Shown piece by piece: positions 48,650-64,000 of a stretch of DNA of 64,000 nucleotides (position 1 is the stretch's first letter; each line of letters starts with the position of its first letter). The position numbers and the translations under genes are program-made. Source of the DNA: Streptomyces graminofaciens (GTDB lineage Bacteria; Actinomycetota; Actinomycetes; Streptomycetales; Streptomycetaceae); the NCBI RefSeq assembly GCF_030294945.1, contig NZ_AP018448.1, positions 1,426,001 to 1,490,000 on the forward strand, in the 5' to 3' direction. Under the pieces are notes generated by a model, which saw nothing but the letters and a program-made list of their open reading frames with translations, was not told the origin of the DNA and searched no databases.

Positions 48650-50989
48650 TCAGCCGACCTGTAGGGCTTGTTCGGCCCAGATGGTCTTGCCCGTGGCGGT
48701 CTGCCGGGTGCCCCAGCCCTGGGTGAGCTGGGCGACCATGTGCAGCCCTCGGCCGCCCTCGTCGTACGTGCGGGCCCGGCGCAGGTGCGGGGCGGTGCTG
48801 CTGGCGTCGGACACCTCGCAGATCAGGGTGCGGTCCCTGATGAGACGCAGGCCGATGGGTACGTCGCCGTAGCGGATGGCGTTGGTGACCAGTTCGCTCA
48901 CGACCAGTTCCGTGACGAACCGCGCGTCGTCCAGCCCCCACTTCTCCAGCTGCCGGGTTGCCTGGGCGCGGGCGTCGGCGACGATCGCGGGGTCGGAGGG
49001 CAGGGCCCAGGCGGCGACCTGGTCGGCGTGCAGGGCTCGGGTGCGGGCGAGGAGGAGGGCAACGTCGTCGGCGGGGGTGGCGGGCAGCATGGCCTTGAGG
49101 ATGCTGTCGCAGGTGAACTCGAGCGACGGCACCGGCTCCGCGAGGGCCTCGCAGAGCCGGTCGATGCCGAAGGTGATGTCGTGGTCGCGGGCCTCGATCA
49201 GGCCGTCCGTGTAGAAGGCGAGGACACTGCCCTCGGGCAGTTCGAGTTCGGTGGCCTCGAAGGGCAGACCGCCGACGCCCAGCAGCGGGCCCGGGGTGAG
49301 CCGGACCATGCTGACCGTGCCGTCGGGGAACAGCACGGCGGGGGGCACATGGCCGGCGCTGGCGAAGGTACAGATACGCGAGACCGGGTCGTAGACGGCG
49401 TACAGACAGGTCGCTCCGATCTCACCGGTGGCCGACTCGTCGGCGGCCACGCCGTCGTCCGAGGTCAGATGGGCGACGAGGTCGTCGAGGTGGGTGAGCA
49501 GTTCGTCCGGGGGGAGGTCCACGTCGGCGAGGGTGCGCACGGCGGTGCGCAGCCGTCCCATGGTGGCGGAGGCGTGGATGCCGTGACCGACGACGTCGCC
49601 GACGACCAGGGCGGCGCGGGTGCCCGAGAGGGGGACGACGTCGAACCAGTCGCCGCCCACGCCGGCGGCCGTGCCGGCGGGGAGATAGCGGTAGGCGACC
49701 TCGACGGCCGCTTGTCTGGGCAGGTCGCGGGGGAGCAGGCTGCGCTGGAGGGTGAGGGCGTTGGCGCGTTCGCGGGTGTAGCGGCGTGCGTTGTCCATGC
49801 CGACGGCCGCGCGGCCCGCGAGTTCCGAGGCGAGGATCACGTCGTCCTGCTCGTACGGCTTCGAGCCGCCGCGGCGGGCGAAGACCACGACCCCGAGGGT
49901 GAGGCCCCGGGCGCGCAGCGGGGCGGCGATGACCGAGTGGAAGCCGTGCTCCTCCACACGGGCGGACCGCGCCATGTCCCCGGCGATCCAGCGCGCGAAG
50001 CCGGGGTCGGCCGTGCCGCTGAGCACAGGGTGCCCGTCGGCCAGGGAGCGCGCGGGCGGTGAGTAAGGCGGATAGGTGTCGGCCTCGCCGAGGGGGACGA
50101 CGGCTTCCGGCACGCCCTCGATGGAGGACTGGTGTGCGATGCGGCGCAGTACGACTGCGGCCTCGACGGTCCGCAGGACCGGTTCCTCGCCGCGGGTCAC
50201 GGAGTCGAGGAGGTCCACGCTGACGAAGTCGGCGAGCCGGGGCACGGCCAGGTCGGCGAGTTCCTGGGCGGTGCGCGTGACGTTGAGGGTGGTGCCGAGG
50301 CGGGTGCCCGCCTCGTTGAGGAGCGCCAGCCGTTCCTCGGCCAGGTGCTGTTCGCTGCTGTCGAAGGTCGCCGTGCCCACCCCGACGACCCGGCCGGAGG
50401 CGGGGTCCCTTACGGGCCACAGTTCGACGATCCAGGCCCGCCCGCGGCCGGACTCCGTGGCCTGGCCGATGAACTCGTAGCGCGTCGGTTCGCCCTCCTC
50501 GGCGACCTGGCGGACGCACTCCAGGAACCCCGCGTCGCCGCGGCCCCTGCCGGAGCGTGTCTGGGGGACGGGGACGGTGGAGAGCGCGACCGACGACTGG
50601 GCGAAGGCCCACTCCACCATCCTGCGGTCGTGCTCCCGCTCGGCCGCGCCCGTGGTGGCGGTCAGGACGAACGCCTGGACCGTACCGTCGCCGTCCAGTG
50701 AGGGGCTCGCGCGCAGGGTCGCCTCGACGCGGTGGCCGTCCTTGTGGCGCAGCGCCACCGTGCCACTCCATTCCTCGGCCGTGACCGGGGCGAACCCGAT
50801 CGCGTCGGTGGACTCCGGGGCGAGGAGGAGATCGGTGGCGGATCGGCCCACGATCTCGGGGGCCCGGTGGCCCAGCAGCCGCCGGGCCTCCTCACTCCAC
50901 CCGGTGACGACACCTTCAAGGCTGACCGTTGCCGTTGCTGCATCCATTGACCACCCACTGCGACCAGGGCCCTGATCAGAAGCGGTCAT
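48650..50989 (-). CDS. PAS-GAF-PP2C (SpoIIE) phosphatase fused to an anti-sigma-type kinase (779 aa)
   Basis: Domains in order: PAS (~20-125), second PAS-like region (~125-215), GAF (~235-400), SpoIIE/RsbU-type PP2C phosphatase (~415-630; GVGGDWFDVVPLSG, VVGDVVGHGIHASATMG, FYTDGLIEARDHD) and a C-terminal HATPase_c_2 kinase domain (~650-775; ELVTNAIRYG, EVSDASS, EGGRGLHMV). Such proteins control partner-switching of anti-sigma factor antagonists. No sigma or STAS gene is adjacent. The phosphatase and kinase in one chain can set the phosphorylation state of the same antagonist. Confidence 0.9.
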   Translation of the reverse strand: MTASDQGPGRSGWSMDAATATVSLEGVVTGWSEEARRLLGHRAPEIVGRSATDLLLAPESTDAIGFAPVTAEEWSGTVALRHKDGHRVEATLRASPSLDGDGTVQAFVLTATTGAAEREHDRRMVEWAFAQSSVALSTVPVPQTRSGRGRGDAGFLECVRQVAEEGEPTRYEFIGQATESGRGRAWIVELWPVRDPASGRVVGVGTATFDSSEQHLAEERLALLNEAGTRLGTTLNVTRTAQELADLAVPRLADFVSVDLLDSVTRGEEPVLRTVEAAVVLRRIAHQSSIEGVPEAVVPLGEADTYPPYSPPARSLADGHPVLSGTADPGFARWIAGDMARSARVEEHGFHSVIAAPLRARGLTLGVVVFARRGGSKPYEQDDVILASELAGRAAVGMDNARRYTRERANALTLQRSLLPRDLPRQAAVEVAYRYLPAGTAAGVGGDWFDVVPLSGTRAALVVGDVVGHGIHASATMGRLRTAVRTLADVDLPPDELLTHLDDLVAHLTSDDGVAADESATGEIGATCLYAVYDPVSRICTFASAGHVPPAVLFPDGTVSMVRLTPGPLLGVGGLPFEATELELPEGSVLAFYTDGLIEARDHDITFGIDRLCEALAEPVPSLEFTCDSILKAMLPATPADDVALLLARTRALHADQVAAWALPSDPAIVADARAQATRQLEKWGLDDARFVTELVVSELVTNAIRYGDVPIGLRLIRDRTLICEVSDASSTAPHLRRARTYDEGGRGLHMVAQLTQGWGTRQTATGKTIWAEQALQVG

Positions 50990-51112
50990 TCCCGCTCACT
51001 TCACGCCGGTGATGTCACTCACTGTCCCAGCCTGCCCGTGGAGGACGAAACAGACAAGTCGGTCCTGTAGCGTGTCGACGCGCATCGCGCCCATGGCCCC
51101 GTCGCTCGTGGG

Positions 51113-52342
51113 TCACAGCCGGATGATGACGAGGGCAGTGTCGTCGGTGGCGCCGCCGGCCGGGAGCAGGTCACGCAGGAGGGCGTCGGCGAGGGGCTCC
51201 AGGACGACGCCGCGGTGGCGGGTGAGGGCGTCGGCGAGACGGGCGAGCCCGGCGTCGATGTCCTCGTCCCGGCGTTCGATCAGCCCGTCCGTGTAGAGGA
51301 CCAGGGTGTCGCCCTCGGCGAAGTCGACGGTTGCCTGTGGCCGGGGGGTGTGTTCCGGGCGTGCGCCGAGCGGCGGATCGGTGGCCTGGTCGAGGAAGAC
51401 GACCCGGCCGTCGCGGCACAGCAGCGCGGGCGGCAGATGACCGGCGCTGCTGTAGACGATCGTGTGGGTGTCCCAGTCGATCCGGGTCTGGACGACGGTG
51501 GTGTTCTCCGCGCCGTCGACGGAGCGGGCGTACAGACCGAGGGCGTCCAGCGCCTCGGCGGGGCCGTCCGCCACGAGGGACGCGGCGCCGAGCGCGCTGC
51601 GCAGCTGGCCCATGACTCCGGCGGCGGCCAGCCCGTGCCCGACGACATCGCCCACGGCTACGCCTATACGGTCGCCGCCGGACAGGTCGACCAGGTCGTA
51701 CCAGTCGCCGCACACGTTCAGCGCGCCCGTGGCCGGCTGGTAGCGCACAGCCGCGCGATGGTGCCTTACAGGGCTGGGCGCGGGGAGCATGGCCTGCTGC
51801 AGGGCGAGGGCGACCTCGCGTTCCCGGGCGTGCGCCTCGCGCAGGCGTTCGTTGACCTCCTGCAGCTCACGGGCGCGGGTGTACAGCTCGGCCTCCAGGA
51901 CGCGGTCCCGGTCGCCGAGCGGGCGGGAGCGGGCGCGGATCAGCTCGGTGACCTCCTCCACCCGGTGGATCACCAGCACCACCTTCCCGTCGGGGCCGAC
52001 GACGGGGGCGTTCACCGGGCTCCAGTACCGCTCCTCCCACTCCCCCGGCCGCTCCGTCGACTGCACGTCGTACCGCTGCAGGGCCATCGCGTCGCGCTCG
52101 CCGGCGCCCACCACCCGCTCCAGGGAGGACGCGAGGTTCCGCATCCCGCTTCCGCCGGGGTCGTCGGGGTTCTCGGGGAACACGTCGAAGAGGTACCGGC
52201 CGATCACCTGCTCGCGGGTGCGCCCCGCCACCCGCAGGAACTCCTCGTTGGCGTCCGCGTACACGAGTTCGGGTGTCAGCAACGCCACCATGCCGGGCAG
52301 GGCCTGGAAGACCTCCGCGTAGTCGATCGCCGTATCAGCCAT
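51113..52342 (-). CDS. PAS-PP2C (RsbU/SpoIIE-type) phosphatase (409 aa)
   Basis: A PAS domain (~10-140; GMVALLTPELVYADANEEFL) is followed by a coiled-coil linker (ELQEVNERLREAHARERE) and a PP2C domain (~170-405; NVCGDWYDLVDLSGGD, VAVGDVVGHGLAAAGVMGQL, DGLIERRDEDID, GGATDDTALVIIRL). All acidic metal-binding positions seem present. The neighbouring PP2C-kinase gene lies 123 bp downstream, so the two may be co-regulated. Confidence 0.9.
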   Translation of the reverse strand: MADTAIDYAEVFQALPGMVALLTPELVYADANEEFLRVAGRTREQVIGRYLFDVFPENPDDPGGSGMRNLASSLERVVGAGERDAMALQRYDVQSTERPGEWEERYWSPVNAPVVGPDGKVVLVIHRVEEVTELIRARSRPLGDRDRVLEAELYTRARELQEVNERLREAHAREREVALALQQAMLPAPSPVRHHRAAVRYQPATGALNVCGDWYDLVDLSGGDRIGVAVGDVVGHGLAAAGVMGQLRSALGAASLVADGPAEALDALGLYARSVDGAENTTVVQTRIDWDTHTIVYSSAGHLPPALLCRDGRVVFLDQATDPPLGARPEHTPRPQATVDFAEGDTLVLYTDGLIERRDEDIDAGLARLADALTRHRGVVLEPLADALLRDLLPAGGATDDTALVIIRL

Positions 52343-52520
52343 GCTGCGCCGCCTCAGCGTCCGTCGCCGTTCTGTGAACCCACCATACGAGCCGGAACCG
52401 GACAGGGCGCGGACCGTGCGGCCAGGAGAACGGCAGGTCACACTACGTGCACGGTCACGGAGCGCAGAGTCGCCGCGGCGGTGCCGGGCCGGGTCGATGC
52501 GCGGCACCGGCCGGCCGAGT

Positions 52521-53030
52521 TCACCGGGTCCGGAGCAGGATGTCGCGCATCGACCCCATGCCGTACTTGTCCTCCCGGCTGGACAGCTCCGCCACCTCGC
52601 GCAGAAGTGGCTCGATGTCGACCCCCGCGTCGCAGGCCTCCGCGCACAGGTCGTGCAGGGTGAGCAGTTCGTCGCGGGTGTCCGAGCCCTGGTCGACGAT
52701 CGACATGTGCAGCAGGCGCTGCCGGAATCCCTCGGGGGTGGGTTCGAAGGGCAGGTGCACGGCCCAGCGGAACGCAGTGCGGTGGGCGAGGAGGGCGCGG
52801 ACGGACGCGCGCAGCGGCTCGTCGCCGTGTTCGTAGGCGCTGAGCAGGGCCCGCAGCGCGGCCTCGGCCTCCGTCCGGACGCCCGCCTCGTCCATCGGGG
52901 CGGGTCTCAGCCGCATCTTCTCCGCCCAGTCGGGATCGCTGACGTCCACCGGCCGCTCCGCGATCGGGCGGAGAGCGGTGTCGACCCGGGTGACGGCCGC
53001 TTCGATCCCCTCGATGTCCTCGATCCTCAT
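52521..53030 (-). CDS. Conserved hypothetical protein, last gene of the polysaccharide operon (169 aa)
   Basis: A strong site AAGGAGGGG precedes MRIEDIEGIEAAVTRVDTAL. The protein is acidic and helical, with SAYEHGDEPLRASVRALLAH, AFRWAVHLPFEP and a conserved end, EDKYGMGSMRDILLRTR. It lies 11 bp after the GH114 gene, so it is probably co-transcribed. Function unknown. Confidence 0.65.
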   Translation of the reverse strand: MRIEDIEGIEAAVTRVDTALRPIAERPVDVSDPDWAEKMRLRPAPMDEAGVRTEAEAALRALLSAYEHGDEPLRASVRALLAHRTAFRWAVHLPFEPTPEGFRQRLLHMSIVDQGSDTRDELLTLHDLCAEACDAGVDIEPLLREVAELSSREDKYGMGSMRDILLRTR

Positions 53031-53041
53031 GAACCCCTCCT

Positions 53042-53863
53042 TCAGCAGGGTTGGCGCCACACCCCGAGTTCCAGACGTTTGACCATCGACGAAAGTCCCA
53101 GGCGGCGGGACTCCGCGCAGAAGCTACTCCTCGGCTCCTTGTACTCGACGTGGAACACCGCCTTTCCGGCCTCGACGAACGGACTCAGCTCGGCGCACTC
53201 GTCGTACTGGGCGCACTCCTCGTTGACCGCGAAGTCGAAGTCGGCCACGAGCTGGGGGATCTGCGGGAGGTCGTTCTTCAGGCCCACCGACAGTCCGCGC
53301 GCGTGGGCGATCTCGGCGATCATGCGGTTGTACCTCAGCTGGTCGCGCGCGGTGAGCGGGAAGCCGGTGTCGTTGCCGTAGCCCTCGACGAGGTCGGGCT
53401 CCACCGCGTCGAAGCCCTTGTCCCGGCACATGTCGAAACGCCGCTCCATGATCGGTCGCAGCACGGAGAGTTCGCGGATGTCCAGCCATCGCTCCCCCGC
53501 CCAGCCGTCGGGTTCGCCGAGCACCGAGCGCGGGAAGTCGTCCTTGTCGGGCCGGTAGTCCTCCCAGGCGCCGACGTTGATGTAGCAGATGACCTTGCGG
53601 CCGTCGCGGTGCAGCCGGGCCACGTCCGCCGCGGTGTTCTCGAAGCCGTCGATGTCGTAGACGGGTACGTCCACCGACGGGTCGACCTTGCTGCTGAGCT
53701 GCCACTGCCAGGCGAGACCCGGCTTCGGCTTCCACCGGGCCGCGGTGGCCGCCGGGGAAGGGGAGCCGCTCGGGCCGCCGGATCCGCCCGTGCCGCTCGA
53801 ACAGCCCGCCAGCAGCGCAACGGCCAGCAGGGTTCCGCACACCAGTGCCGTGCTCCTCTTCAT
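53042..53863 (-). CDS. GH114-type endo-alpha-1,4-galactosaminidase lipoprotein (273 aa)
   Basis: The lipobox is LLAGC (Cys ~21) after a short signal, then a Ser/Gly linker. The GH114 barrel follows: WQWQLSSKVDPSVDVPVYDI, VICYINVGAWEDYRPD, WLDIRELSVLRPIMERRFDM, GFDAVEPDLVEGYGNDTG and GLKNDLPQIPQLVADFDFAV. The family (fungal Ega3, domain of bacterial PelA) cleaves alpha-1,4-linked galactosamine polymers. A surface-anchored form could trim or recycle the polymer made by this operon. The start overlaps the Spherulin-4 gene by ATGA. Confidence 0.85.
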   Translation of the reverse strand: MKRSTALVCGTLLAVALLAGCSSGTGGSGGPSGSPSPAATAARWKPKPGLAWQWQLSSKVDPSVDVPVYDIDGFENTAADVARLHRDGRKVICYINVGAWEDYRPDKDDFPRSVLGEPDGWAGERWLDIRELSVLRPIMERRFDMCRDKGFDAVEPDLVEGYGNDTGFPLTARDQLRYNRMIAEIAHARGLSVGLKNDLPQIPQLVADFDFAVNEECAQYDECAELSPFVEAGKAVFHVEYKEPRSSFCAESRRLGLSSMVKRLELGVWRQPC

Positions 53864-54525
53864 CGCTCCGCCGTCCCGGTCAGCGCGGGCGTCAACTCGG
53901 CCCAGGGATTGGGTGGTTCACCCGTGACGGGGCCGCACACCGCCGCGCCGCGCTCGTGCGCGGTGCGGACGGCGAGCGGGACGAGCGCCTCGGGCACGCC
54001 GTACACGAGGTGGCACAGTGCCTCAGGTGGATGCCGGTCGGTCCAGGCCGGTCTGCTGAACGCCGAGACGTACGTCGACCAGTGGCCCTCGAAGGTGACG
54101 GTCAGGTCGGCGAGGCGGGCGTACCCCGGCGCCGGATGGACGCCGGGGTTGAGGACGACCGTCCCGGCGCCGAGTCCGCGCACGGCCTTGACCAGGCGGC
54201 GGCAGGCCGACAACCCCTCCGGTGTCGCCGTCACCCGGTCGAGGAAGCAGCCGTCGGCCGCGTACCACTCCTGGTGTCGGCGCAACTCGTCGGCGATCTC
54301 GGCGCGGTCGCGCACCCCGTAGTCGGTGTCGACGTAGCCGAGCAGCCGCGCCCCGGCCTCGCGGAGGGCACCGGCCGCCGCCGTGAACGCGGGGTCGGGG
54401 CTCTCGCCCGGCCCGTTCGCGGGGTTGAGGATCACCCCGTAGGTGCGGTCGGCGGCGGTGATCAGGCGGTGCCAGGCGCCCGGGTCCTCGGCCGGGTGGA
54501 CGTAGAGCGGAATCAGCAGGCTCAC
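53860..54525 (-). CDS. Spherulin-4 / GH135-like protein (221 aa)
   Basis: The sequence matches the Spherulin-4 pattern: LLIPLYVHPAEDPGAWHRLI, GVILNPANGPGESPDPAFTA, ARLLGYVDTDYGVRDRAEIA, YAADGCFLDRVT. In Aspergillus the Spherulin-4 enzyme Sph3 (GH135) hydrolyses alpha-1,4-GalNAc in galactosaminogalactan and is needed for its synthesis. There is no signal peptide from this GTG start, so here it may act in the cytoplasm or reach the surface by another route. GTGA overlap with the upstream epimerase-like gene. Confidence 0.8.
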   Translation of the reverse strand: MSLLIPLYVHPAEDPGAWHRLITAADRTYGVILNPANGPGESPDPAFTAAAGALREAGARLLGYVDTDYGVRDRAEIADELRRHQEWYAADGCFLDRVTATPEGLSACRRLVKAVRGLGAGTVVLNPGVHPAPGYARLADLTVTFEGHWSTYVSAFSRPAWTDRHPPEALCHLVYGVPEALVPLAVRTAHERGAAVCGPVTGEPPNPWAELTPALTGTAER

Positions 54526-55433
54526 GGCGAACCGTCGCCTTCCCCCACGGAGCGCCACAGCGCGGCCACGGCGTCGTCGACGGTGTGGGCCGGGCGCCAG
54601 CCGAGGGCCGCCTCGGCGGCGGTGATGTCGGAGCACTGCCAGGAGACCTCTGCCGAGCGGACCGAGGCCGAGCCTCCCGCGTTCTCCTGGATCCGTCCCC
54701 GAAAGCCGGCCTTGTCGGCGAGGCCGCGGACGAGTTCGCGCACCTGGACCGCCTGCCCCCCACTGATGTTGAGGACGGGGGGCAGCGGGCCGGAGGCCGT
54801 GACCGCGAGGACCACCGCCCGGGCCACATCGCGGACGTCGACGAAGTCGCGGTAGGCGGACAGGTCGCCGAGGCGCAGCACGGCGGCCGGGTCGGAGCCG
54901 GTCGCGCGCAGCAGTCCGGCGATGCGGCCGGGCAGACCGGTGGCCGGTGCCCCCGGCCCGACCGGGTTGCCGACGCGCAGGACGACAGCGTCGAGGCCGG
55001 AGGAGGCGACGGCGACCGTGCCGGCGAGTTTGGTCGCGCCGTACGGGCCGACCGGGCGGACGGCCGCCGACTCCGTCACCCGGACGTCCGGGACGCCGGG
55101 GCCGTACTCGGCGGCCGAGCCCAGATGGACCAGCCGGGCGGCGGGTGCCGCCTGGCGCAGCGCCGCGCACAGCACGGCGGGGCCTCTGGCGTTGACCTCG
55201 GCGAGGGTGACGGCGTCGCCGCCGGTGGCGCCGGCGCAGTTGATGACGGTGTCGGGGGCGGCCGACGCGAGGGTCTTCGCCAGTTCTTCGGGGTGGACCG
55301 AGGCCAGGTCGACGGGGAACTCGGCGGCGGGCGCGCGCCCGCCGCCGAGGACCAGCGCGCCCGGCAGGGCGCGCAGTCGCTCGGCGATGTGGGCGCCCAG
55401 ATAGCCGGTGCCGCCCAGGACGAGAATGCGCAT
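54522..55433 (-). CDS. SDR-type NAD-dependent sugar epimerase/reductase (303 aa)
   Basis: A Rossmann motif MRILVLGGTGYLGAHIAERL begins the protein and the SDR catalytic set is VHLGSAAEYG (Ser), then YGATKLAG (Y-x-x-x-K). DFVDVRDVARAVVLAV is typical of extended SDRs such as GalE/RmlD-like enzymes. It would epimerise, dehydrate or reduce a nucleotide sugar for the polymer. The precise reaction is not resolved. The frame above Met 55433 belongs to the next gene's shadow. Confidence 0.8.
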   Translation of the reverse strand: MRILVLGGTGYLGAHIAERLRALPGALVLGGGRAPAAEFPVDLASVHPEELAKTLASAAPDTVINCAGATGGDAVTLAEVNARGPAVLCAALRQAAPAARLVHLGSAAEYGPGVPDVRVTESAAVRPVGPYGATKLAGTVAVASSGLDAVVLRVGNPVGPGAPATGLPGRIAGLLRATGSDPAAVLRLGDLSAYRDFVDVRDVARAVVLAVTASGPLPPVLNISGGQAVQVRELVRGLADKAGFRGRIQENAGGSASVRSAEVSWQCSDITAAEAALGWRPAHTVDDAVAALWRSVGEGDGSP

Positions 55434-55440
55434 GTGGTGC

Positions 55441-56154
55441 TCAGGCCCCCTTGAGCAGAAGCGACTTTCGGGTGGTGAACTCGGCGTTGGCCTGGTCGTA
55501 GTCGTCGGGGCGGCCGATGTCCAGCCAGTACCCGTCGAACTCGTAGGCATGTGGCTGGTTGTCGGCCCTCAGCAGATCGAGGACCAGTTCGTCGAAGCCC
55601 AGCGGCAGTCCGGGTGTGTAGCCGTCCAGGGTCGAGCGGGACAGGCCGTAGACGCCCATGGAGACGTGGTAGTCCATGCTGGGTTTCTCGGTGAACGCGA
55701 CGACCTTGTTGGTGTCGGTGGTCAGCACACCGAAGTCGATGTGGACCTTGCGGGCGTAGGTGGCGATGGTCAGCGGGGCGCCCGAGGCGCGGTGCTGGTG
55801 CAGGACGTCGGCGTAGTCGAGGTCAGTGAGGACGTCACCGTTCATGACCAGGAACGTCTCGGGCAGCCGGTCGCGCAGGTTGAGCAGCGGGCCCATGGTG
55901 CCGAGCGGGCTGTCCTCGGTGGCGTAGTCGACGGTCAGGCCCCACTGGGAGCCGTCGCCGACGTAGGCGCGGATGATCTCGCCGAGGTGGCCGATGGCAA
56001 TGGTGCAGCTGGTGAAGCCGGCCGCGGACAGCTGGCGGAGCACGATCTCCAGGATGGCGTGCTGGTCGCCGATGGGCACGAGCGGCTTGGGCAGCGCGGT
56101 GGTGTAGGGCCGCAGCCGGACACCCTTGCCTCCCGCCAGGATCACTGCGTGCAT
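55441..56154 (-). CDS. NDP-sugar nucleotidyltransferase (237 aa)
   Basis: The signature MHAVILAGGKGVRLRPYTTA is followed by LPKPLVPIGD (the pyrophosphorylase Lys) and FLVMNGDVLTDLDYADV (metal-binding Asp). Shorter than RmlA, like GCD1/HddC-type enzymes. It would activate a sugar-1-phosphate to an NDP-sugar precursor. Located between the two SDR genes, with gaps of 7 and 43 bp. Confidence 0.85.
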   Translation of the reverse strand: MHAVILAGGKGVRLRPYTTALPKPLVPIGDQHAILEIVLRQLSAAGFTSCTIAIGHLGEIIRAYVGDGSQWGLTVDYATEDSPLGTMGPLLNLRDRLPETFLVMNGDVLTDLDYADVLHQHRASGAPLTIATYARKVHIDFGVLTTDTNKVVAFTEKPSMDYHVSMGVYGLSRSTLDGYTPGLPLGFDELVLDLLRADNQPHAYEFDGYWLDIGRPDDYDQANAEFTTRKSLLLKGA

Positions 56155-56197
56155 GGGACTCCTCTTCGTACTCGGATGAAGGGTCGTGTCGGGCGGG

Positions 56198-57199
56198 TCA
56201 GATGTTGTAGATGCCGGTCTTGTAGCGGGCCAGGTTGGCCGGGTCGCGGAAGAACTCAACGGTGTGCGCGAGCCCCTCCTCCAGGGAGTGGGCGGGCTGC
56301 CAGTCGGTGGCGGCGGCGAGCCGGGTCGCGTCCGCGACCAGCCGCATCACCTCGGAGCCCGCGGGCCGGATGCGTGTCTCGTCCTCGCGGACGTCGAGTT
56401 CGGTGTCCATGACCTTGCCGATCAGCGCGACGAGGTCGCCGACCGAGATCTCCCCGCCGGTACCGGCGTTGAAGGTGCGTCCGACGACCTGCTCGGCGGG
56501 CGCGGTGCCGACCGCGAGGAACGCCTGTGCGGTGTCCTTGACGAAGGTGAAGTCCCGCGTGGGGCGCAGATCGCCGAGGGTGATGGTGCGCTCCCCCGCC
56601 GCGACCTGGCCGATGACGGTGGGGATGACCGCGCGCATCGACTGGCGCGGCCCGAAGGTGTTGAACGGCCGCAGGGTGACGACCGGGGTGCCGAAGCTGG
56701 CGTGGTAGCTGTCGGCCAGCCGGTCCCCGCCCGCCTTCGAGGCGGCGTACGGGGACTGGGTGTTGATGGGGTGGTCCTCGGTGATCGGTACGGTCTGCGC
56801 GGTGCCGTACGTCTCGCTGGTGGAGGTGTGCACCAGCCGGGGCGTGCCGAGGGCGCGGACGGTCTCCAGCACGTTGAGGGTGCCGGTGACGTTGGTGTCC
56901 ACATAGCTGTGGGGCGCCTGGTAGGAGTACGGGATCGCGATGAGCGCGGCCAGGTGGTAGGCGGTGTCGGCGCCTTCGAGGAGACCGCGCACGGAACCGG
57001 GGTCGCGGACGTCACCGAGGACGATCTCCACGTGGTCGAGGACGTCCGGCCGGAGGGTCTCCAGCCAGCCGTACGAGGAGAAGGAGTTGTACTGGGCCAT
57101 GGCCCGCACCCGGTGTCCGGAGGCGACGAGTGCCTCGGTGAGGTGCGAGCCGATGAAGCCCTCGGCTCCGGTGACGGCGGCGAGCGGTGCGGAGGTCAA
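56198..57199 (-). CDS. SDR nucleotide-sugar 4,6-dehydratase/epimerase, LegB-like (333 aa)
   Basis: A Rossmann motif AAVTGAEGFIGSHLTEALVA is followed by RVRAMAQYNSFSSYGWLETL, a hallmark of LegB-type 4,6-dehydratases. The catalytic set is STSETYG and YAASKAGGD. I chose a TTG start at 57199 with AAGGA upstream because residues encoded before it look untranslated; the nearest ATG is at 57262. It would make a 4-keto or epimerised amino sugar nucleotide. Confidence 0.8.
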   Translation of the reverse strand: MTSAPLAAVTGAEGFIGSHLTEALVASGHRVRAMAQYNSFSSYGWLETLRPDVLDHVEIVLGDVRDPGSVRGLLEGADTAYHLAALIAIPYSYQAPHSYVDTNVTGTLNVLETVRALGTPRLVHTSTSETYGTAQTVPITEDHPINTQSPYAASKAGGDRLADSYHASFGTPVVTLRPFNTFGPRQSMRAVIPTVIGQVAAGERTITLGDLRPTRDFTFVKDTAQAFLAVGTAPAEQVVGRTFNAGTGGEISVGDLVALIGKVMDTELDVREDETRIRPAGSEVMRLVADATRLAAATDWQPAHSLEEGLAHTVEFFRDPANLARYKTGIYNI

Positions 57200-57289
57200 C
57201 TGGTGGGTCCTTCCGGTCGGTTGGATGTCGGGGTGATCAGCGGTGGATCGGTGATGGATCACTGCGGGATCGTTGATCTCGGGGAGAGT

Positions 57290-58702
57290 TCAGGCGTGCG
57301 ACGCGGGCCTGCCGAGCAGCCGCAGCGTGCACGCCGACAGACACAGCAGGGCCGCGCCGCAGGCCAGCGGCAGCGCCGCGTGGCCGGGTGGGAGACCCAG
57401 GCCGGTGACCGCCGCGGCGCCGCCCGCCGCCGTGAGGCAGATCAGGGCCGAGGGCCAGGCCGCCCCGAAGGCCTGGAGCAGCAGCGCGGTCCACAGCACG
57501 GCCGCGAGCAGCAGCAGTGCGGTCGGTTCGGAGCCGGTGAGCAGGGCGGCCGGCAGCAGCGGCGCCAGGTAGCCGAGCAGACAGAGACCGAGGATGCCGG
57601 CCGAGCGCAGCAGGAACCCGACGGGTGTGGCGGTGGACCGCAGCGCGGACACCGACAGACCCCGGTAGCGGTAGAGCAGCCATTCCGCCGGTCCCATGCT
57701 GACGGTCAGCACGATCACGGCGTACGGCTCCTCGCGTCCCTCCAGCAGTACGAGCACCCCGGCGGCCAGGCCGAACAGGCCGTACGGCAGGGACCACAGC
57801 AGGTGTGGTCCGGCGGCGCCGGACGCGGCCGGGGCGCTGCGGGCGGTCCAGAGGGCCCGGCCGGTGACGGCGAGCGTGGCGAGGAGGGCGAGCAGGGGCA
57901 GTCCGGCCCGCAGTTGGGGGCCCGGTTCCCACCAGGGCAGGACCGCGGCTCCGGCGATCAGGGGGCTGAGCGCGGCCAGCAGCAGCCGTTCTCTGCCGAA
58001 CACCAGCAGGACGCCCGCCGCCGCGAGGTAGGCGGACTGTCCGGCGGCGATCAGGATCACGGCGCCGCTCTCGGCGGGCAGTGCCGCGACCCCCGTGGCG
58101 ACCGCCGCGCCCAGGGGCGCGCCGACGAGGAGCGTACGGCCCGCCTCGCGTCGCCCGGTCGCCATCCGCAGATGCGCGCGGTGGCCGAGCGCCTGGCCCC
58201 AGGCCCAGGAGACGAGTCCCGCCAGGACGAGGACCGGGATGTGTGCTCCGGCGTTCCACAGCGGGGTGGTGAGGAGATACGCGAGGCCCGGCAGGGCGAA
58301 CAGCACACCGCGCAGGAGGCAGCGCACCGTGTCCGGGCGCCAGGGGTCCGGCCCCCGCGGGGGGTCCGGGAAGGTCCGCGGCACCTTCTCGTACAGCGCG
58401 GCGGCGAGGGAGAACAGATTGGGGTGGCCGTACCGTTCCTTGATGACGGAGGCGGGCATGCCCTCCGCCTCCAGGAGTGCGGCCACCTCGTAGGGGTGGA
58501 CGGCCGGGCCGATGCGGTCGGCGAGTTCGGCGGCGAGACCGTTGACCGCCTCCTCGTCGGGGCCGCGCCGGGGCAGGCGGATGACGAGGGTGGTGTCGTC
58601 GAGGGCCCAGCTCGGGCGGCGGTGTATGAGGCGCCGGTCGGCCAGCCGGATCGCCAGCGTGTCCTGGTCGCCGCCGGGTTCCAGTGACATGGGGCCGCTC
58701 AT
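57290..58702 (-). CDS. Multi-pass membrane protein of the polysaccharide operon (470 aa)
   Basis: A cytosolic N-terminus of ~120 residues (PYEVAALLEAEGMPASVIKE, RYGHPNLFSLAAALYEKVPR) precedes about ten to eleven transmembrane helices in two halves (~130-260 and ~275-465). It overlaps the PelF-type gene by ATGA, so the two are co-translated. By position it stands where Pel systems have the PelG/PelE membrane partners of PelF, but I see no clear PelG sequence pattern. It is the best candidate for polymer export or for anchoring the glycosyltransferase. Confidence 0.7.
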   Translation of the reverse strand: MSGPMSLEPGGDQDTLAIRLADRRLIHRRPSWALDDTTLVIRLPRRGPDEEAVNGLAAELADRIGPAVHPYEVAALLEAEGMPASVIKERYGHPNLFSLAAALYEKVPRTFPDPPRGPDPWRPDTVRCLLRGVLFALPGLAYLLTTPLWNAGAHIPVLVLAGLVSWAWGQALGHRAHLRMATGRREAGRTLLVGAPLGAAVATGVAALPAESGAVILIAAGQSAYLAAAGVLLVFGRERLLLAALSPLIAGAAVLPWWEPGPQLRAGLPLLALLATLAVTGRALWTARSAPAASGAAGPHLLWSLPYGLFGLAAGVLVLLEGREEPYAVIVLTVSMGPAEWLLYRYRGLSVSALRSTATPVGFLLRSAGILGLCLLGYLAPLLPAALLTGSEPTALLLLAAVLWTALLLQAFGAAWPSALICLTAAGGAAAVTGLGLPPGHAALPLACGAALLCLSACTLRLLGRPASHA

Positions 58703-60198
58703 CCGGCCACCGTGCTGATCGGGGCGAGCGGGGCCGACGGGACCGCCAACCGGTGCTCCGGCTTGGGAAGTTCGAGATAGATGGCGCGGAAGGTGTCGAT
58801 GGTCTGGCGGAGGGTGAACTGCTCGATCACCCGCAGCCGGGCCGCCTCGCCCATCGCCGCGCGCCGCGCCGGGGCGCCCAGGAGTGCCAGCGCGGCCGCG
58901 GCCATCGCCGCCGGGTCACGCGGCGGTACGACGAGCCCGGTGTCGCCGACGGCCTCCCGTACGCCGCCGACGTCGGTGGAGACGGTCGCCCGGCCGCACG
59001 ACATGGCCTCGATCAGGGTGAAGGGGAAGCCCTCGCTGATGCTGGAGAGCATCACGACGTTCCCGGCCGCGTAGGCGTCCTTGATGTCGTCGACGCGGCC
59101 CTCGAAGGTGACGGCGTCCGCGTGCCCGAGTTCGGCGGCGAGCGCCTCGCAGCGCTCCCGGTAGGCCTCGCCGCCGCGCGGGGTGCCGCCGAACAATCTC
59201 AGCCGGGTGTCCGGGAGTTGGGCGCGGACCATGGAGAAGGCCCGGATGAGGGTCTCCAGGTCCTTGATCGGGTCGACGCGGCCCGCCCAGCTGAGGGTGA
59301 GCGTGTCCGGCTCCGGTCCGGCGGGCGGGAAGGCCGCGGGGTCGACGCCGTTGTAGACCGTGCGTATGGACTCCGGGTCGGCGCCGCCCTGTTCCTCCCA
59401 GAGCCGGTTGTAGCGGTTGCCGGGGGTGATCAGGGCGGCCCTGCGGTAGCTCTCCTCCGCGAGCAGCCGGAAGAAGCCGAGGACGACGGCCTTGACGGGC
59501 CAGCGGTAGGGGGCGGTGCGGTAGCCGAGGTAGCGCTCGCGCAGATAGACGCCGTGCTCGGTGAGCAGTAGGGGTACGCCGTGGTGTTCGAGGGCGGCGA
59601 GGCCGGGCAGGACGGCGACGCCGCCGCTGACCGCGTGCGCGACCCCGTACTCGGGAGGTGGCGCGGCCAGCGGGCGCAGGGCGTGTTCGAGCAGGGAGGT
59701 CGCGGTGAGCGCGTCGTGCAGGTTTGGGCGGGCCTCGCGTACGGCCAGGCCCGGGCGGTTCCATATGCCGGTCAGGACGGCGATCGCCCGGTCGCCGCGC
59801 AGGAAGGGGCTCAGTGTTCCGTCCGCCGCGGCCCGCGCCATGGCGTACAGGGCGGGCGCGAAAGCCGACTCGGCGTGCGGGTCGAGCAGGGCGGTGAGGA
59901 ACTGTTCGTAGGCGTGGGTGAGTCGGTTGCGGGCGCGGCCCCGGGGCGGACGGCCATCCGGCGGGGCGCCCCACATGGGGACGGACAGGACGCGTGTCAC
60001 ATGTGCGGGCAGGTCCCAGACGACGGGTTCGCGTCCGGTCCCGGTGACGGCGATGACGTCGAAGTCGAGGTCGGGCATGCCCTGTACGAGCTGGTCGCAC
60101 CAGACGCTGACGCCGCCGTGACTGTGTGGGTAGGTGCCTTCGGTAAGCAGTGTGACGCGCGTCGCGTCACTGTTTCGCGCTCCGTGAGGAACGGGCAT
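58699..60198 (-). CDS. PelF-type GT4 glycosyltransferase (499 aa)
   Basis: The N-terminal LLTEGTYPHSHGGVSVWCDQ is the hallmark of PelF, the synthase of the Pel polysaccharide. The nucleotide-sugar half shows LSWAGRVDPIKDLETLIRAF, GGTPRGGEAYRERCEALA, and SSISEGFPFTLIEAMSCGRA with the E-x7-E motif. It is a soluble GT-B enzyme that works with a membrane partner, here probably the overlapping 470-aa protein. PelF uses UDP-GalNAc/GlcNAc in Pseudomonas; substrate here is inferred. Confidence 0.9.
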   Translation of the reverse strand: MPVPHGARNSDATRVTLLTEGTYPHSHGGVSVWCDQLVQGMPDLDFDVIAVTGTGREPVVWDLPAHVTRVLSVPMWGAPPDGRPPRGRARNRLTHAYEQFLTALLDPHAESAFAPALYAMARAAADGTLSPFLRGDRAIAVLTGIWNRPGLAVREARPNLHDALTATSLLEHALRPLAAPPPEYGVAHAVSGGVAVLPGLAALEHHGVPLLLTEHGVYLRERYLGYRTAPYRWPVKAVVLGFFRLLAEESYRRAALITPGNRYNRLWEEQGGADPESIRTVYNGVDPAAFPPAGPEPDTLTLSWAGRVDPIKDLETLIRAFSMVRAQLPDTRLRLFGGTPRGGEAYRERCEALAAELGHADAVTFEGRVDDIKDAYAAGNVVMLSSISEGFPFTLIEAMSCGRATVSTDVGGVREAVGDTGLVVPPRDPAAMAAAALALLGAPARRAAMGEAARLRVIEQFTLRQTIDTFRAIYLELPKPEHRLAVPSAPLAPISTVAG

Positions 60199-60383
60199 GG
60201 TTGTGCTCCACGGCCGAGAAGTGGGGTGGTTCGTGCCGGTCCCGGCCGCCGGCGGGCGGACGGGACCGCAGGGCGGTCCTGGGGTCGGTCCTGGGAACCG
60301 CCTTGTGGTCCGTCCTTGGGTCACGCCTGGGATCGGTGGTCATGAGGTCGGTGCCGGTGGCGGCCCCCGGTGCCGTACGGCGG

Positions 60384-62513
60384 TCAGCTCTCCGCGGTGT
60401 ACGGGACGGGCTCGCTCACGCCGTCGGGGACCTTGGTGTCCGGCGCGGGTTTCGTGGCGGGGGCCGTCTCGGCGGACTCGTCGGCCGGCAGCGCGGCGGA
60501 GGCCGGCAGGGTGAAGTCGAGCGGGGCGCCCGCGGAGGGTGTCCAGCCCGAGACCGCGCCCGCGTAGGCCTCGCCGAAGGCGGCGCCGGCCGACGTCGTC
60601 CCGGTGGGCAGGGTCGCGGTGACCGCCAGCTCGTCCGGTGCCTCGACGGTCACCGTGTCGCCGATGCGGTAGGCGGTGACGTCACCGGCCTGGACGGCCG
60701 TCTTCCAGGCGGCTCTGCGCCGCAGTTCGGCGCCGATGTCCTTCATTCTCAGGTTGACCACGGGGGTGTTGGTGGCGAACAGCGCCGTGTAGCCGTCGAG
60801 GACGCCGTCGAGCACCGGGTAGGCGATGCGGTCCTCGGCCAGGTTCGACTGGTGGATGAAGTGCGGCTTGGGATCATTGGCGAGGACATGGCCGAGGGCG
60901 ATGCGCTTCTCCAGCGGCACGATGACCTCGGCGTAGCCCGTGGCGGTGTCGAGGGGGGCCGACAGGCAGGTGGCGGTGGCGGGGTTGTCCTCGCAGATGC
61001 CGCTGCCGCCCTGGGCGCGGCTGGTGTAGATCCAGTTGTACTCGTCGACCTGCTCGGCCGCCCTGCCCGCGTTGTAGAACACGTTCATCGGGTAGCGGGG
61101 CACGGTCGTGGCGGGGCCGACCTGACGCTGGTCGGGCTCGCGGGAGTTGTCCGAGCCGAGCCAGTCGATGTCGTTGTCGTCGAGGGCGAGCGCCAGGTTG
61201 GGGTTGTCCTCGGTCTGCTGCGGCAGCACTTTCATGCCGGAGTGCTCACCGGTGACCAGCTCACCGTTCTCCAGCGGGAGTCCGGCGCTCGCGCCCCAGA
61301 CGCGGTTGGTGGCGATCTCGTCGGCGATGTCGCTGCGGCCGACCCATTGGGTGGAGCCGTCCGCGTTGGTCGCGCATCTCCAGGGCACGACCGAGGTGTC
61401 CTGGACACAGCCTAGGAAGGCGTGCGTGTAGGTGTGGTTGATCCAGCGGAACTCGGCGCGGTCCGCGATCAGCTTGTCGGCGAGCGCGTCGTCGCCGTTG
61501 TTGTCCCCGCGGTGACCGACGCTGCCCGCGCCGTTGTAGGCGAGGTCGAGGGTGAAGTCGTTCTCGGTCTGCCAGGCGGTGGCGTGGTCGACGTCGGCCG
61601 TGGTCATACGGATCGGGTCGGGCTCGGCGTTCGGGTCCGTGCAGTCGACGTCACCGGGGGTGCAGTTCAGCTCGGTGTTCCAGCGGTCGTCGGCGGCGAA
61701 CACGTCGTCGACGTGCACGGCGAAGTAGTTCCGCGAGGCGCCCAGGTGCACACCGCCGGTCATCCACTCCACGATGCCGCGGGCCAGCAGCCGGAACTGC
61801 TGCTGGTACCGGTTGTAGACGAAGGTGACGACGAGCTCGCGCCGCCCGTCGTGCTTGTACTCGCCCACGAGCGTGCCCTTGGTGGACTGCCCGGGGACCG
61901 TCGCCTCGACGTAGGGGGTGAAGTCGGCTCCGGCGACGGGGGTCGACAGGTAGGCGTAGCTCTCGCCGATCGCCGGGTCGTTGTCCTCGAAGGGCACCGC
62001 CCCGTCGAGATAGCCGAAGGGGCCCGACTTGCCGGCGGCGGTCACCTCGGCCTCGGCGCCGTCGAGGCTGCCGGAGTAGCCACCGTGGACCGGATACTGC
62101 AAACCGGCTTCTGGACGCGCGTAGGTGTAGGCGTCGACTTGAGGAATCGCGTACGTCTGCTCGTACGCCGCGAGCGCCGCCATCTCGGCGGAACCGGCCG
62201 GGAACGGGTTGTCGTTGGGCAGCACCACGGCCTGGAACCTCGCGCGCGGCCTGCCGTCGACGGTGTCCGCGAGGAAGCCCGCGTCGATCACGGTCCGGCC
62301 GGAGTCATTGAGGTCGATCTCGGTGTACGGCGTGCCGGCCGCGGTCAGTTCGGCGGCTATCGCGTCGGTGGAAGGGCCGCCGTCGCTCACTATGAGGACG
62401 CGCAGATCGATGCGGGGCGTGGTGCCATCGGCGTGTGCGGCGCCGGTCGGCAGGCCGAGTGCGGCGATGAGCGCGCCCACCGTGAGCATGGTGGTGCGTA
62501 AGGTCCGCGTCAT
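60384..62513 (-). CDS. CE18/Agd3-like secreted polysaccharide deacetylase (709 aa)
   Basis: Signal peptide at 1-28 (ending GAAHADG). A large N-terminal region (~35-255) with carbohydrate-binding character precedes the NodB-type catalytic domain. Its metal motifs are NYFAVHVDDVF (Asp269/Asp270) and WINHTYTHAF (His360, His364). The domain order and motifs resemble Agd3 of Aspergillus, which partly deacetylates galactosaminogalactan, and the deacetylase part of PelA. Deacetylation would make the polymer cationic and adhesive. A Pro/Ala/Glu-rich tail ends the protein. It leads the operon; 185 bp separate it from pelF. Confidence 0.85.
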   Translation of the reverse strand: MTRTLRTTMLTVGALIAALGLPTGAAHADGTTPRIDLRVLIVSDGGPSTDAIAAELTAAGTPYTEIDLNDSGRTVIDAGFLADTVDGRPRARFQAVVLPNDNPFPAGSAEMAALAAYEQTYAIPQVDAYTYARPEAGLQYPVHGGYSGSLDGAEAEVTAAGKSGPFGYLDGAVPFEDNDPAIGESYAYLSTPVAGADFTPYVEATVPGQSTKGTLVGEYKHDGRRELVVTFVYNRYQQQFRLLARGIVEWMTGGVHLGASRNYFAVHVDDVFAADDRWNTELNCTPGDVDCTDPNAEPDPIRMTTADVDHATAWQTENDFTLDLAYNGAGSVGHRGDNNGDDALADKLIADRAEFRWINHTYTHAFLGCVQDTSVVPWRCATNADGSTQWVGRSDIADEIATNRVWGASAGLPLENGELVTGEHSGMKVLPQQTEDNPNLALALDDNDIDWLGSDNSREPDQRQVGPATTVPRYPMNVFYNAGRAAEQVDEYNWIYTSRAQGGSGICEDNPATATCLSAPLDTATGYAEVIVPLEKRIALGHVLANDPKPHFIHQSNLAEDRIAYPVLDGVLDGYTALFATNTPVVNLRMKDIGAELRRRAAWKTAVQAGDVTAYRIGDTVTVEAPDELAVTATLPTGTTSAGAAFGEAYAGAVSGWTPSAGAPLDFTLPASAALPADESAETAPATKPAPDTKVPDGVSEPVPYTAES

Positions 62514-62763
62514 GCGGTGCAGTCCCCTCCCCGGGCAGGGGTGAGCGCGGCTCCCGCAGAGCGGACGCACCCCCTTGCGCGACGCCGGCTCCCCCCTCAG
62601 AAGTCGGTCGTCGACGCATCCGTCGCGTCACATAGTGGTGGCTCTGTGCAGCTTTCGTGGTGATGCAGCGAAACATGACGAAAAAGCGCAGGTGTCCAAC
62701 AGGGGTGACCTGGAACCGAATTGACGTTTTTTCCATCGTCCAGGAGCTTTGCGCCGGATGGCC

Positions 62764-62800
62764 CCCGAAGGGCCCGGCGCGCTGGTCCGGGCCCTTCGGG
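62764..62800. promoter_or_regulatory. Perfect 14-bp stem-loop in the deacetylase leader region
   Basis: CCCGAAGGGCCCGG pairs perfectly with CCGGGCCCTTCGGG around 9 nt. It is 250 bp upstream of the deacetylase start and 285 bp upstream of the divergent gene. It could attenuate read-through in either direction. Apart from this hairpin and the dre site, the 572-bp gap shows no gene. Confidence 0.55.
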
Positions 62801-62840
62801 ACGCACCGGCGGACCGCGTGGGCCCGCCGGACCGATCGCC

Positions 62841-62856
62841 AGTGGTCCAGACCACA
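62841..62856. promoter_or_regulatory. DasR-responsive element (dre)-like operator
   Basis: AGTGGTCCAGACCACA matches the dre consensus AGTGGTCTAGACCACT at 14 of 16 positions, with perfect GTGGTC/GACCAC arms. DasR is the GntR-family regulator of N-acetylglucosamine use in Streptomyces. The site is 328 bp upstream of the deacetylase gene and 230 bp upstream of the divergent 63086 gene, so either or both may respond. Confidence 0.7.
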
Positions 62857-63085
62857 AATGTGAGCCCGGTCACAGATCATTTCAGGTCACTCCCACCGTG
62901 GTCGGTCATTTCCCCGAGGGAGCGTCAGGCGTGGAGCACGCGCGTCTCGGGCGTGCAGGCCGGCCCGCCGCTGGACGACACCACCGGAATCAGCGACATG
63001 GTGACGCGGGCCCGGCCGAGTGGCGCCTACGGCTGATGGAGGGCCTCCGGCTGCGGGGGCCCGCGCATCGTGCGATAACGGCACC

Positions 63086-63862
63086 ATGGCAGAGATTCCC
63101 ACGGCCAAGGCCGCTGAACTCAAGATCAGTTTCTCCGGCGACGAGGCACGGAAGGCGGCCTGTGCGCTCGGGCTGCAGAGCAGTGCGGGCCGCAGTCGCA
63201 CGATCCACTTCTGGGACGCGCCGAGGAAGGGCTCCGAGGGCATCGTGCTGCCCTTCCTCGAACGCGGGGTCATCCTCCGGCTGCGGCTGGACGACGCGGA
63301 CCACGGGGCGAAGCGCAAGGGGGACATGACCGTCAAGCTGCGGCCGTGTCCCCCGCTGCCGTCCGACTGGCAGGAGGAGATCAAGAACGAGGACGACGAC
63401 TGGGAGTTCACGATCGAGGAGGACCGGGCGGGCCCCTCCTTCGTACCCGTGCCGGCCGCCTCGCTCCAGGCCGACCGCAAGTTCGAGGCGGCGCTCCTCC
63501 GGTCGGCGCTCGCGTCCGAACGCGGCGCCCTGGACCATCTCCTCACCGACCCGCACCACGGCCTTCTCGAGGACGCCGCCGGTCTGAAGAAGGGCGACCT
63601 CTCCGACCTCAGGGCGCTGGGCCCGGTGTACAGCGTCAAGTGGAAGCAGGAGTGGGACGAACTGGCCGTGGCCATCGAGGAGTGGACGGTCAAGGACCTG
63701 CGTTTTCTGGAGATCTCGGTCCGATCGAGCACGGCGGAGGCGGCCGACACCGGGCGACTGCTCGAACGGGCCCTGCGTGGACGCGGCATCGAGCCGCCGC
63801 CGTCCGGCGAGACCAAGACGCGGATGGCGCTGACGGTCCTCGCCCGCGACCTGGTGCCCTGA
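63086..63862 (+). CDS. CYTH-like hypothetical protein (258 aa)
   Basis: The N-terminal half has a tunnel-fold-like pattern (RTIHFWDAPRKGSEGIVLPF, LERGVILRLRLDDAD, GDMTVKLRPCPPLP) similar to CYTH/triphosphate-tunnel proteins, where such basic and acidic strands bind triphosphates. The N-terminal E-x-E-x-K motif is not clear, so the assignment is weak. The C-terminal half has YSVKWKQEWDELAVAIEEWT and LRFLEISVRSS. The start at 63086 fits the coding pattern; a strong terminator follows. Confidence 0.6.
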   Translation: MAEIPTAKAAELKISFSGDEARKAACALGLQSSAGRSRTIHFWDAPRKGSEGIVLPFLERGVILRLRLDDADHGAKRKGDMTVKLRPCPPLPSDWQEEIKNEDDDWEFTIEEDRAGPSFVPVPAASLQADRKFEAALLRSALASERGALDHLLTDPHHGLLEDAAGLKKGDLSDLRALGPVYSVKWKQEWDELAVAIEEWTVKDLRFLEISVRSSTAEAADTGRLLERALRGRGIEPPPSGETKTRMALTVLARDLVP

Positions 63863-63877
63863 CGGACTCCGCGCCGA

Positions 63878-63915
63878 CGGCCCCGGCACCCGGCCCTTCC
63901 CCGCTGCCGGGGCCG
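63878..63915 (+). terminator. Perfect 11-bp intrinsic terminator-like stem-loop
   Basis: CGGCCCCGGCA pairs with TGCCGGGGCCG around 16 nt, 16 bp after the CYTH-like stop codon. Confidence 0.7.
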
Positions 63916-63979
63916 GGCCGGGACGAGTCCTCGGTGCTAGCGTGAGGGAACGTAGGCCGACTCGTGCAGAGGCGACCGT

Positions 63980-64000
63980 GTGCCCAGCGGCTGTACGAGG
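63980..64000 (+). CDS. Possible first codons of the next gene
   Basis: AGAGGCGACC precedes GTGTG near the right edge, and a GTG at 63980 (or 63978) opens a frame to the end of the window. Seven codons are too few to identify anything. Confidence 0.2.

Follow-up and report, generated by a model that had tools for sequence, protein, structure and literature searches.

Eight closely packed genes of Streptomyces graminofaciens, all on the reverse strand, probably form an operon that directs the synthesis of a hexosamine exopolysaccharide, one that is synthase-dependent and in part de-N-acetylated; the system would be a variation on the bacterial Pel and fungal galactosaminogalactan (GAG) systems. 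The genes are located at positions 53042-62513 of a 64,000-nucleotide stretch, referred to here as the window, which lies at 1.43-1.49 Mb in the 11.6-Mb complete genome and in which the range 52521-62856 was studied. Such a polymer is the natural reading because an Agd3-like deacetylase, a PelF-like transferase, a GH114 protein and a Spherulin4 protein are present together, and from homology we infer substrates, export, complex formation and a role in adhesion. The genes in this range were, in the order of transcription:

60384..62513, reverse strand: CE18/Agd3-like polysaccharide de-N-acetylase (CE18), predicted to be secreted, with a CBM87-like and a CE domain (family profile against Agd3, catalytic motifs)
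58699..60198, reverse strand: PelF-type GT4 glycosyltransferase (PelF), DUF3492 plus Glycos_transf_1 (NF038011, PF11997)
57290..58702, reverse strand: polytopic membrane protein (MemP) with about 11 hydrophobic segments (segment estimate; no Pfam family)
56198..57262, reverse strand: nucleotide-sugar short-chain dehydrogenase/reductase (SDR), LegB-like 4,6-dehydratase (TIGR04180, TSE motif); GTG start, with a TTG at 57199 also possible
55441..56154, reverse strand: sugar-1-phosphate nucleotidyltransferase, GDP-mannose pyrophosphorylase/MurU-like (PF00483, PDB relatives)
54522..55433, reverse strand: second nucleotide-sugar SDR (SDR2), nearest to GDP-4-keto-6-deoxy-hexose reductase (RMD) (PF01370, PDB matches)
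53860..54525, reverse strand: Spherulin-4/GH135-like protein (Spherulin4) without a signal peptide (PF12138, Sph3 5c5g)
53042..53863, reverse strand: GH114 endo-alpha-1,4-galactosaminidase-like lipoprotein (PF03537, Ega3 6ojb, lipobox)
52521..53060 (also given as 52521-53030), reverse strand: small protein, function not assigned (no Pfam family over the cut-off)

Overlaps of 4 bp were seen at the PelF/MemP, SDR2/Spherulin4 and Spherulin4/GH114 junctions. The order CE18-PelF-MemP-SDR-nucleotidyltransferase-SDR-Spherulin4 was kept in 60 of the 63 Streptomyces loci whose downstream sequence reached 9 kb or more, which argues that the gene set is no chance gathering; the GH114 gene was additionally present in 49 of the 63. 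The order was broken where genes were not called, namely Spherulin4 in L082, both SDR2 and Spherulin4 in L141, and the nucleotidyltransferase in L146. The count was taken from the best 80 of 564 confirmed loci, a selection that favours close relatives; in one of the 80 no CE18 gene was called, and of the other 79, 16 were excluded for having less than 9 kb downstream. Gene starts and neighbours at the fetched loci come from our own simple gene caller.

The genome contains three paralogous PelF loci: locus A is the one in the window, locus B at 9.34 Mb has the order CE18-PelF-MemP-GH114, and the third, locus C (5.10 Mb, L011:9216-14244), has PelF-MemP-SDR2-Spherulin4, without CE18 or GH114. Locus C adjoins a gene that by eye has a MoeB/ThiF-like appearance.

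Deacetylase, GH114 lipoprotein, transferase and membrane protein

When searched alone, the CE18 protein scored 19.8 bits against the Pfam Agd3_CE model, which is under the cut-off of 27.6, and had no match among the PDB sequences. A profile (A3) of nine CE18 family members, four of which were from other actinobacterial groups, matched Agd3 (PDB 6nwz) with E=6.2e-46, the runner-up being heparan N-deacetylases at 3e-7. The match extended over two stretches, 35-319 and 338-630 of 633, that span the N-terminal (CBM87) and CE domains. In the alignment, the CE18 segments DD, HTxxH, PR and HQ(S/A)N land on the Agd3 motifs: the motif residues CM1 to CM4 are D268, D269, H359, H363, R472 and H553 in A3 numbering, and the Agd3 motif residues with assigned roles are D377/D378, H510/H514, R613 and H668 (PMC7229062; this and the other papers are cited from the part of their text that was available). 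The CM1 Asp-Asp pair was found in 95 of 95 CE18 rows, and the CM2, CM3 and CM4 residues were kept in every variant listed (91, 89 and 92 of the 95 rows, respectively). The relative in L054 has a Cys in place of the CM3 Arg. It should be noted that the motif alignments count the locus A gene twice (window and L013) and contain other duplicate rows, such as G006/L093 and G011/L115. The N-terminus of the CE18 protein was signal-peptide-like by inspection. By sequence relation and the four catalytic motifs, the deacetylase is a member of the Agd3/CE18 family.

The GH114 lipoprotein matched PF03537 (5e-88) and Ega3 (6ojb, E=3.2e-63), and a lipobox, LAGC, was recognized by inspection. Its EPD and (N/D)E(E/Q)CA segments, which presumably hold the Ega3 catalytic pair, were retained in 56 of 56 rows. 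Elsewhere in the same genome, at 6.05 Mb, we noted a gene (L012:7834-9654) whose product joins a serine/threonine kinase (Pkinase, 5.9e-39) to a GH114 domain at its C-terminus (2.6e-49) and is possibly a sensor kinase in which a domain of galactosaminidase fold acts as the receptor.

The glycosyltransferase scored 164.8 bits against the NF038011 model of PelF, with a cut-off of 100, and matched DUF3492 (PF11997) with 6.6e-62. A first-pass annotation of the sequence had named a CE18/Agd3-like deacetylase, a PelF-type glycosyltransferase and a GH114 lipoprotein in one leftward gene set, and the profiles and gene calls bore this out: all of the enzyme classes that it listed are present and run leftward, and neither the deacetylase nor the transferase was placed in an unrelated family.

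The MemP protein had no match in Pfam or NCBIfam. It starts with a conserved, cytoplasmic-looking domain of about 65 residues, and relatives are encoded at all three PelF loci of the genome. A MemP profile made without locus-C rows matched the locus-C relatives in the C-terminal part (97.3%, E=1.7e-11), and the PelF partners in distant actinobacteria were matched in the N-terminal domain and first membrane segment (97.4%, E=9.8e-12); in controls, the first MemP profile (A1) gave probabilities of 2% and 0.4% against two unrelated membrane proteins. In the operon, MemP takes the place that PelD, PelE and PelG have in Pel systems, and from this position a putative role in transport is suggested.

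An identification of MemP as PelG was rejected, since MemP matched neither a Pfam family nor the PelG profile. The two may still be remotely akin, as a distant MemP relative, in L053, matched PelG weakly (20.8 bits, cut-off 29). That locus, from a distant actinobacterium (L053:5108-13519), has PelF and the MemP-like protein beside two large proteins (714 and 727 residues), one of which was weakly PTPS_related-like (PF10131, under the cut-off). The sole PelG match in the S. graminofaciens genome, at 10.0 Mb, was partial and with 24.3 bits under the cut-off of 29. Among 121 Streptomyces genomes, 29 gave partial matches to PelG (PF16933); nine of these were over the cut-off, all covered about the same third of the profile, and we read them as other exporters. 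No GAF, GGDEF, HEAT or TPR domain, as looked for in a test for PelD, was found among the nine genes at 52521-62856 (Pfam, E<=0.1), and no PelE was seen in a general Pfam scan of the nine genes, which included no dedicated PelE model and thus gives weak support for its absence.

Nucleotide-sugar genes and the Spherulin4 protein

The SDR at 56198-57262 scored 447.3 bits against the TIGR04180 model of LegB, followed by 162.6 bits for the next model; as the score is under the cut-off of 475 although the catalytic motif is present, we refer to the protein as LegB-like and not as LegB. The segments STSETYG (with the TSE motif) and SPYAASK were identical in 80 of 80 LegB-like rows, which were selected at more than 70% identity, so that the 30%-identical relative in L054 falls outside the set. 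STSETYG aligns with STDEVYG of the dehydratase DesIV (1r66), and the equivalent segments of 6wjb and 6dnt are without the Glu. LegB-type enzymes use GlcNAc nucleotides, and from this general background we infer that the product of the module is an amino sugar.

The SDR2 protein matched PF01370 (7.8e-38), and its top PDB matches were the GDP-6-deoxy-hexulose reductases 2pk3 (65 bits) and 6x3b (62 bits). MoeE5, presumably an epimerase, followed with 53 bits and the first entry named as a 4-epimerase with 50 bits, giving the RMD enzymes a lead of 12 and 15 bits, respectively. By closeness SDR2 thus looks like an RMD-like reductase, with a role as an epimerase also possible. The nucleotidyltransferase matched PF00483 (4e-39), and its best PDB relatives were the nucleotidyltransferases or GDP-mannose pyrophosphorylases 7whr and 7d72. 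Taken together, the three genes look like the usual set for a nucleotide-linked 6-deoxysugar and not like a Uge3 epimerase. Two nucleotide-sugar SDRs and a nucleotidyltransferase had been predicted and are indeed present, but the implied equivalence with Uge3 did not hold for the gene at 56198-57262, and SDR2 is nearest to RMD, with the epimerase option noted above.

The Spherulin4 protein matched PF12138 (1.2e-34) and Sph3 (5c5g, E=5.5e-16). Of 81 rows, 70 have a start that overlaps the preceding gene by 4 bp, and in 67 the first barrel motif begins 5 residues past the start, too close for a signal peptide to fit in between. Because of the missing signal peptide and the start on the overlap, the operon protein is predicted to be cytoplasmic, unlike the membrane-bound, extracytoplasmic Sph3. 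In two rows, L055 and L056, both from pel-type operons, the called protein had an N-terminus that was long and hydrophobic, and in the Streptomyces loci L095, L106 and L143 a hydrophobic stretch occurred only upstream of the called start. The earlier assignment to the Spherulin-4 (GH135-like) family was correct, but without a signal peptide the protein is not a straightforward Sph3.

The putative catalytic residues of Sph3 are Asp-166, Glu-167 and Glu-222 (PMC10485009), and a nucleophile and acid/base pair has been named, printed as Asp196/Glu222 (PMC12054363). The window protein retains both residues of the catalytic pair, as Asp96 and Glu146, and has Arg97 at the Glu-167 position. At loci of the A and B kinds, the three positions read D-R-E in 54, D-Q-E in 22 and D-E-E in 2 of 78 rows, the last 2 being L055 and L056. 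For loci of the C kind, which is widespread, 23 rows could be read, and in all of them the third position was Ser, Ala, Thr, Arg or Gln (4 of 4 rows of a first alignment and 19 of 19 readable among 20 further locus-C rows); one of the 23, L061, also had Ala at the Asp position. None of the 20 proteins had a hydrophobic segment (KD >1.6) upstream; they were selected by score class, and a PelF match within 5 kb was seen for at least 14 of them among the matches listed. Among 14 stand-alone Spherulin4 proteins of Streptomyces, the 13 readable ones all kept the Asp and the third-position Glu, and 10 of the 14 had a hydrophobic segment. The predicted location thus appears to set the operon-borne proteins apart from the stand-alone ones, and at locus C so does the acid/base residue.

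Paralogous loci, distribution and known systems

A tree of 30 PelF rows placed the four from locus C in one group (100/100 support) and the three Streptomyces locus-B rows in another (100/100); the 17 Streptomyces locus-A rows were grouped with weaker support (90/72), and the program warned of long branches among the non-Streptomyces rows. CE18 and GH114 were found in none of the four called locus-C neighbourhoods.

Relatives of the machinery are widespread in Streptomyces: among the 121 genomes of the genus, PelF/DUF3492 was found in 113, GH114 in 110, Spherulin4 in 82, CE18 in 58 and the LegB orthologue, which marks the deoxysugar version, in 28. Streptomyces lavendulae and S. griseofuscus, both harmless soil strains, are among the carriers of the operon. 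DUF3492 without CE18 was seen in 56 of the 121, as expected for genomes that hold only the C kind of locus; the number is 56 because one genome with CE18, G102, had no DUF3492 match. The orthologues of LegB were defined by a score of at least 605 bits, the next class reaching at most 331. PelF was located within 10 kb of 26 of these 28 loci, and Spherulin4 near all 28, 27 times at full size. Near 23 of the 28 there was a CE18 piece 1500 bp or longer (any piece, 26), and near 15 a GH114 piece of at least 600 bp (any piece, 18); the locus in G069 was decayed and that in G099 split between contigs. In a sample of 246 genomes from the phylum, CE18 was found in 8, four of them of the same genus including the S. 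graminofaciens genome itself, and MemP in 10.

The class of operon is already known since 2020. Bamford et al. 2020 (PMC7229062) described operons in which actinobacterial agd3-like genes lie with those for a cytoplasmic glycosyltransferase and a multi-spanning membrane protein, both present in every operon they identified, and with GH114 and, in some cases, Spherulin-4; the window operon has the same CE18, transferase, membrane protein, GH114 and Spherulin4 components. The 6-deoxysugar module, the Spherulin4 protein without a signal peptide and the three PelF loci are undescribed in the available text of that paper. Our additions are the deoxysugar module, the predicted non-secreted Spherulin4, the apparent loss of the acid/base residue at locus C, the distinct membrane partner and the three parallel loci. 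Beyond PMC7229062, no Streptomyces study of the cluster was found among the titles and beginnings of abstracts of the open-licence papers listed.

The fungal galactosaminogalactan cluster (agd3, ega3, sph3, gtb3/gt4c, uge3) shares homologues of Agd3, Ega3 and Sph3 and a GT4-type transferase with the Streptomyces operon. In contrast to that cluster, the SDR at 56198-57262 is without the Uge3-type epimerase motif, a nucleotidyltransferase and a dehydratase are added, Spherulin4 is predicted to be non-secreted, and PelF and the membrane protein are separate. The first-pass claim that fungal clusters have the same set was therefore overstated, given the dehydratase TSE motif and the lack of a signal peptide in Spherulin4.

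The Gram-positive pelDEA(DA)FG operon of Bacillus cereus (PMC7112168, PMC13254593) has PelF and an extracytoplasmic de-N-acetylase in common with the Streptomyces operon, whereas no PelD- or PelG-like gene was found among the nine genes of the Streptomyces range, for which reason the cluster is not considered a Pel operon. The deacetylases also differ, the Streptomyces one being CE18-like and the B. cereus one the founder of CE26, which is set apart here by its description (PMC13254593). Two actinobacterial loci (L055:2992-12138 and L056:3914-13023) were seen to combine PelF, PelG (PF16933, 475 bits in L055 and 459 bits at the matching place in L056), an Agd3-type CE18 and a Spherulin4-domain protein. 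In L055 the protein at the PelD position has GAF and GGDEF domains, and L056 is similarly arranged, the domain test having been made on L055.

Competing readings and flanking genes

For the exopolysaccharide that we favour, the nucleotidyltransferase, the LegB-like 4,6-dehydratase and the RMD-like reductase would make a dedicated nucleotide-linked 6-deoxy(amino)sugar, which PelF would polymerise, alone or with UDP-GalNAc, at the inner face of the membrane. The chain would be exported by MemP, whose N-terminal domain perhaps docks PelF or Spherulin4. Outside the cell, CE18 would strip N-acetyl groups and so render the chain cationic, and at loci that have one, a GH114 lipoprotein would cut back the de-acetylated stretches. 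The cytoplasmic Spherulin4 may edit mis-made chains or be a structural or regulatory subunit of a PelF-MemP machine. A more far-reaching version, 'deoxy-Pel', is offered as a speculation that we hold to be unlikely as a whole: a de-N-acetylated 6-deoxyhexosamine polymer (e.g. poly-FucNAc or poly-QuiNAc), the PelF monomer having been switched after capture of the sugar module, with the GH135-fold protein intracellular beside PelF and MemP and the locus-C subunit, its catalytic acid/base lost, purely structural or regulatory.

Several observations weigh against the favoured operon model. The top PDB match of the LegB-like SDR is the epimerase/dehydratase family entry 6wjb, which we take to be PelX, a UDP-GlcNAc epimerase, and which is 8 bits over DesIV; in addition, the LegB score is the sub-threshold one given above. 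Locus C carries SDR2 without a dehydratase or nucleotidyltransferase, which would fit an epimerase better than a reductase, and in the GSAAEYG segment of SDR2 the Ser is changed to Cys in 4 of 5 locus-C rows. With a gene of at least 600 bp near 15 of 28 LegB loci, and presence in 49 of 63 Streptomyces loci, GH114 is not an obligate part. For MemP, it is the gene position that points to transport. Finally, Val is found at the Glu-167 position in 9 of 13 readable stand-alone Spherulin4 proteins, which are mostly secreted-looking, so that Arg or Gln at this position is by itself no sign of lost activity. As most stand-alone relatives are also without the Glu, the change was dropped as a special feature; the variability lowers the weight of this residue, and the balance between the readings rests on protein location and the sugar module.

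The cluster could instead be a plain bacterial counterpart of the galactosaminogalactan and Pel clusters, with one SDR acting as a UDP-GlcNAc/GalNAc 4-epimerase, a GalNAc/GalN polymer as the product and Spherulin4 as an ordinary hydrolase. The CE18, PelF, GH114 and Spherulin4 families all act on alpha-1,4-GalNAc/GalN polymers, the Agd3 paper interprets such operons in this way (PMC7229062), PelF is accompanied by SDR2 alone at locus C, and at loci of the window kind Spherulin4 retains the residues at the Asp and Glu-222 positions. We nevertheless regard it as rather unlikely, as all 80 rows of the LegB-like SDR carry the dehydratase Glu, a 4-epimerase route would make the nucleotidyltransferase superfluous, and Spherulin4 has no signal peptide. 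A non-adhesive surface glycan, e.g. a cell-wall-linked amino-sugar polymer for which CE18 and GH114 are remodelling enzymes, seems improbable: a secreted CE18 and a GH114 lipoprotein beside a PelF synthase are the pattern of an extracellular hexosamine polymer. In its favour are the finding of no match to an exporter of a known exopolysaccharide class among the proteins searched, the mention of galactosamine-containing polysaccharides in Streptomyces cell walls in the available text of PMC7229062, and the absence of CE18 and GH114 from the four locus-C neighbourhoods called.

Hyphal aggregation in Streptomyces has been tied to MatAB and PNAG (PMC5972031). If the favoured exopolysaccharide exists, it would be a second, cationic amino-sugar polymer that bears directly on pellet formation and fermentation. 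Likewise, an intracellular GH135-fold subunit, if true, would alter the view of such hydrolases as post-export trimmers.

The range 52521-62856 proposed for the cluster was too wide at both ends, the eight genes occupying 53042-62513. For the gene at 52521-53060, 103 neighbourhoods were gene-called and the 102 besides its own held no relative, for which reason it was rejected as a member of the operon and probably lies outside the system, and 62514-62856 is the region upstream of the CE18 start. No Rfam match was obtained at the gathering threshold for positions 50000-64000. Several relatives have, upstream of CE18, a gene for a small protein that looks secreted and has about 155-175 residues (L047:918-1445, with similar-looking genes in L062, L063 and L065); no gene of the L047 type was called upstream of CE18 in the window. 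Just downstream of the operon, at 48650-52507, we noted genes for two SpoIIE-type phosphatases with PAS domains, one of which also has a GAF domain.

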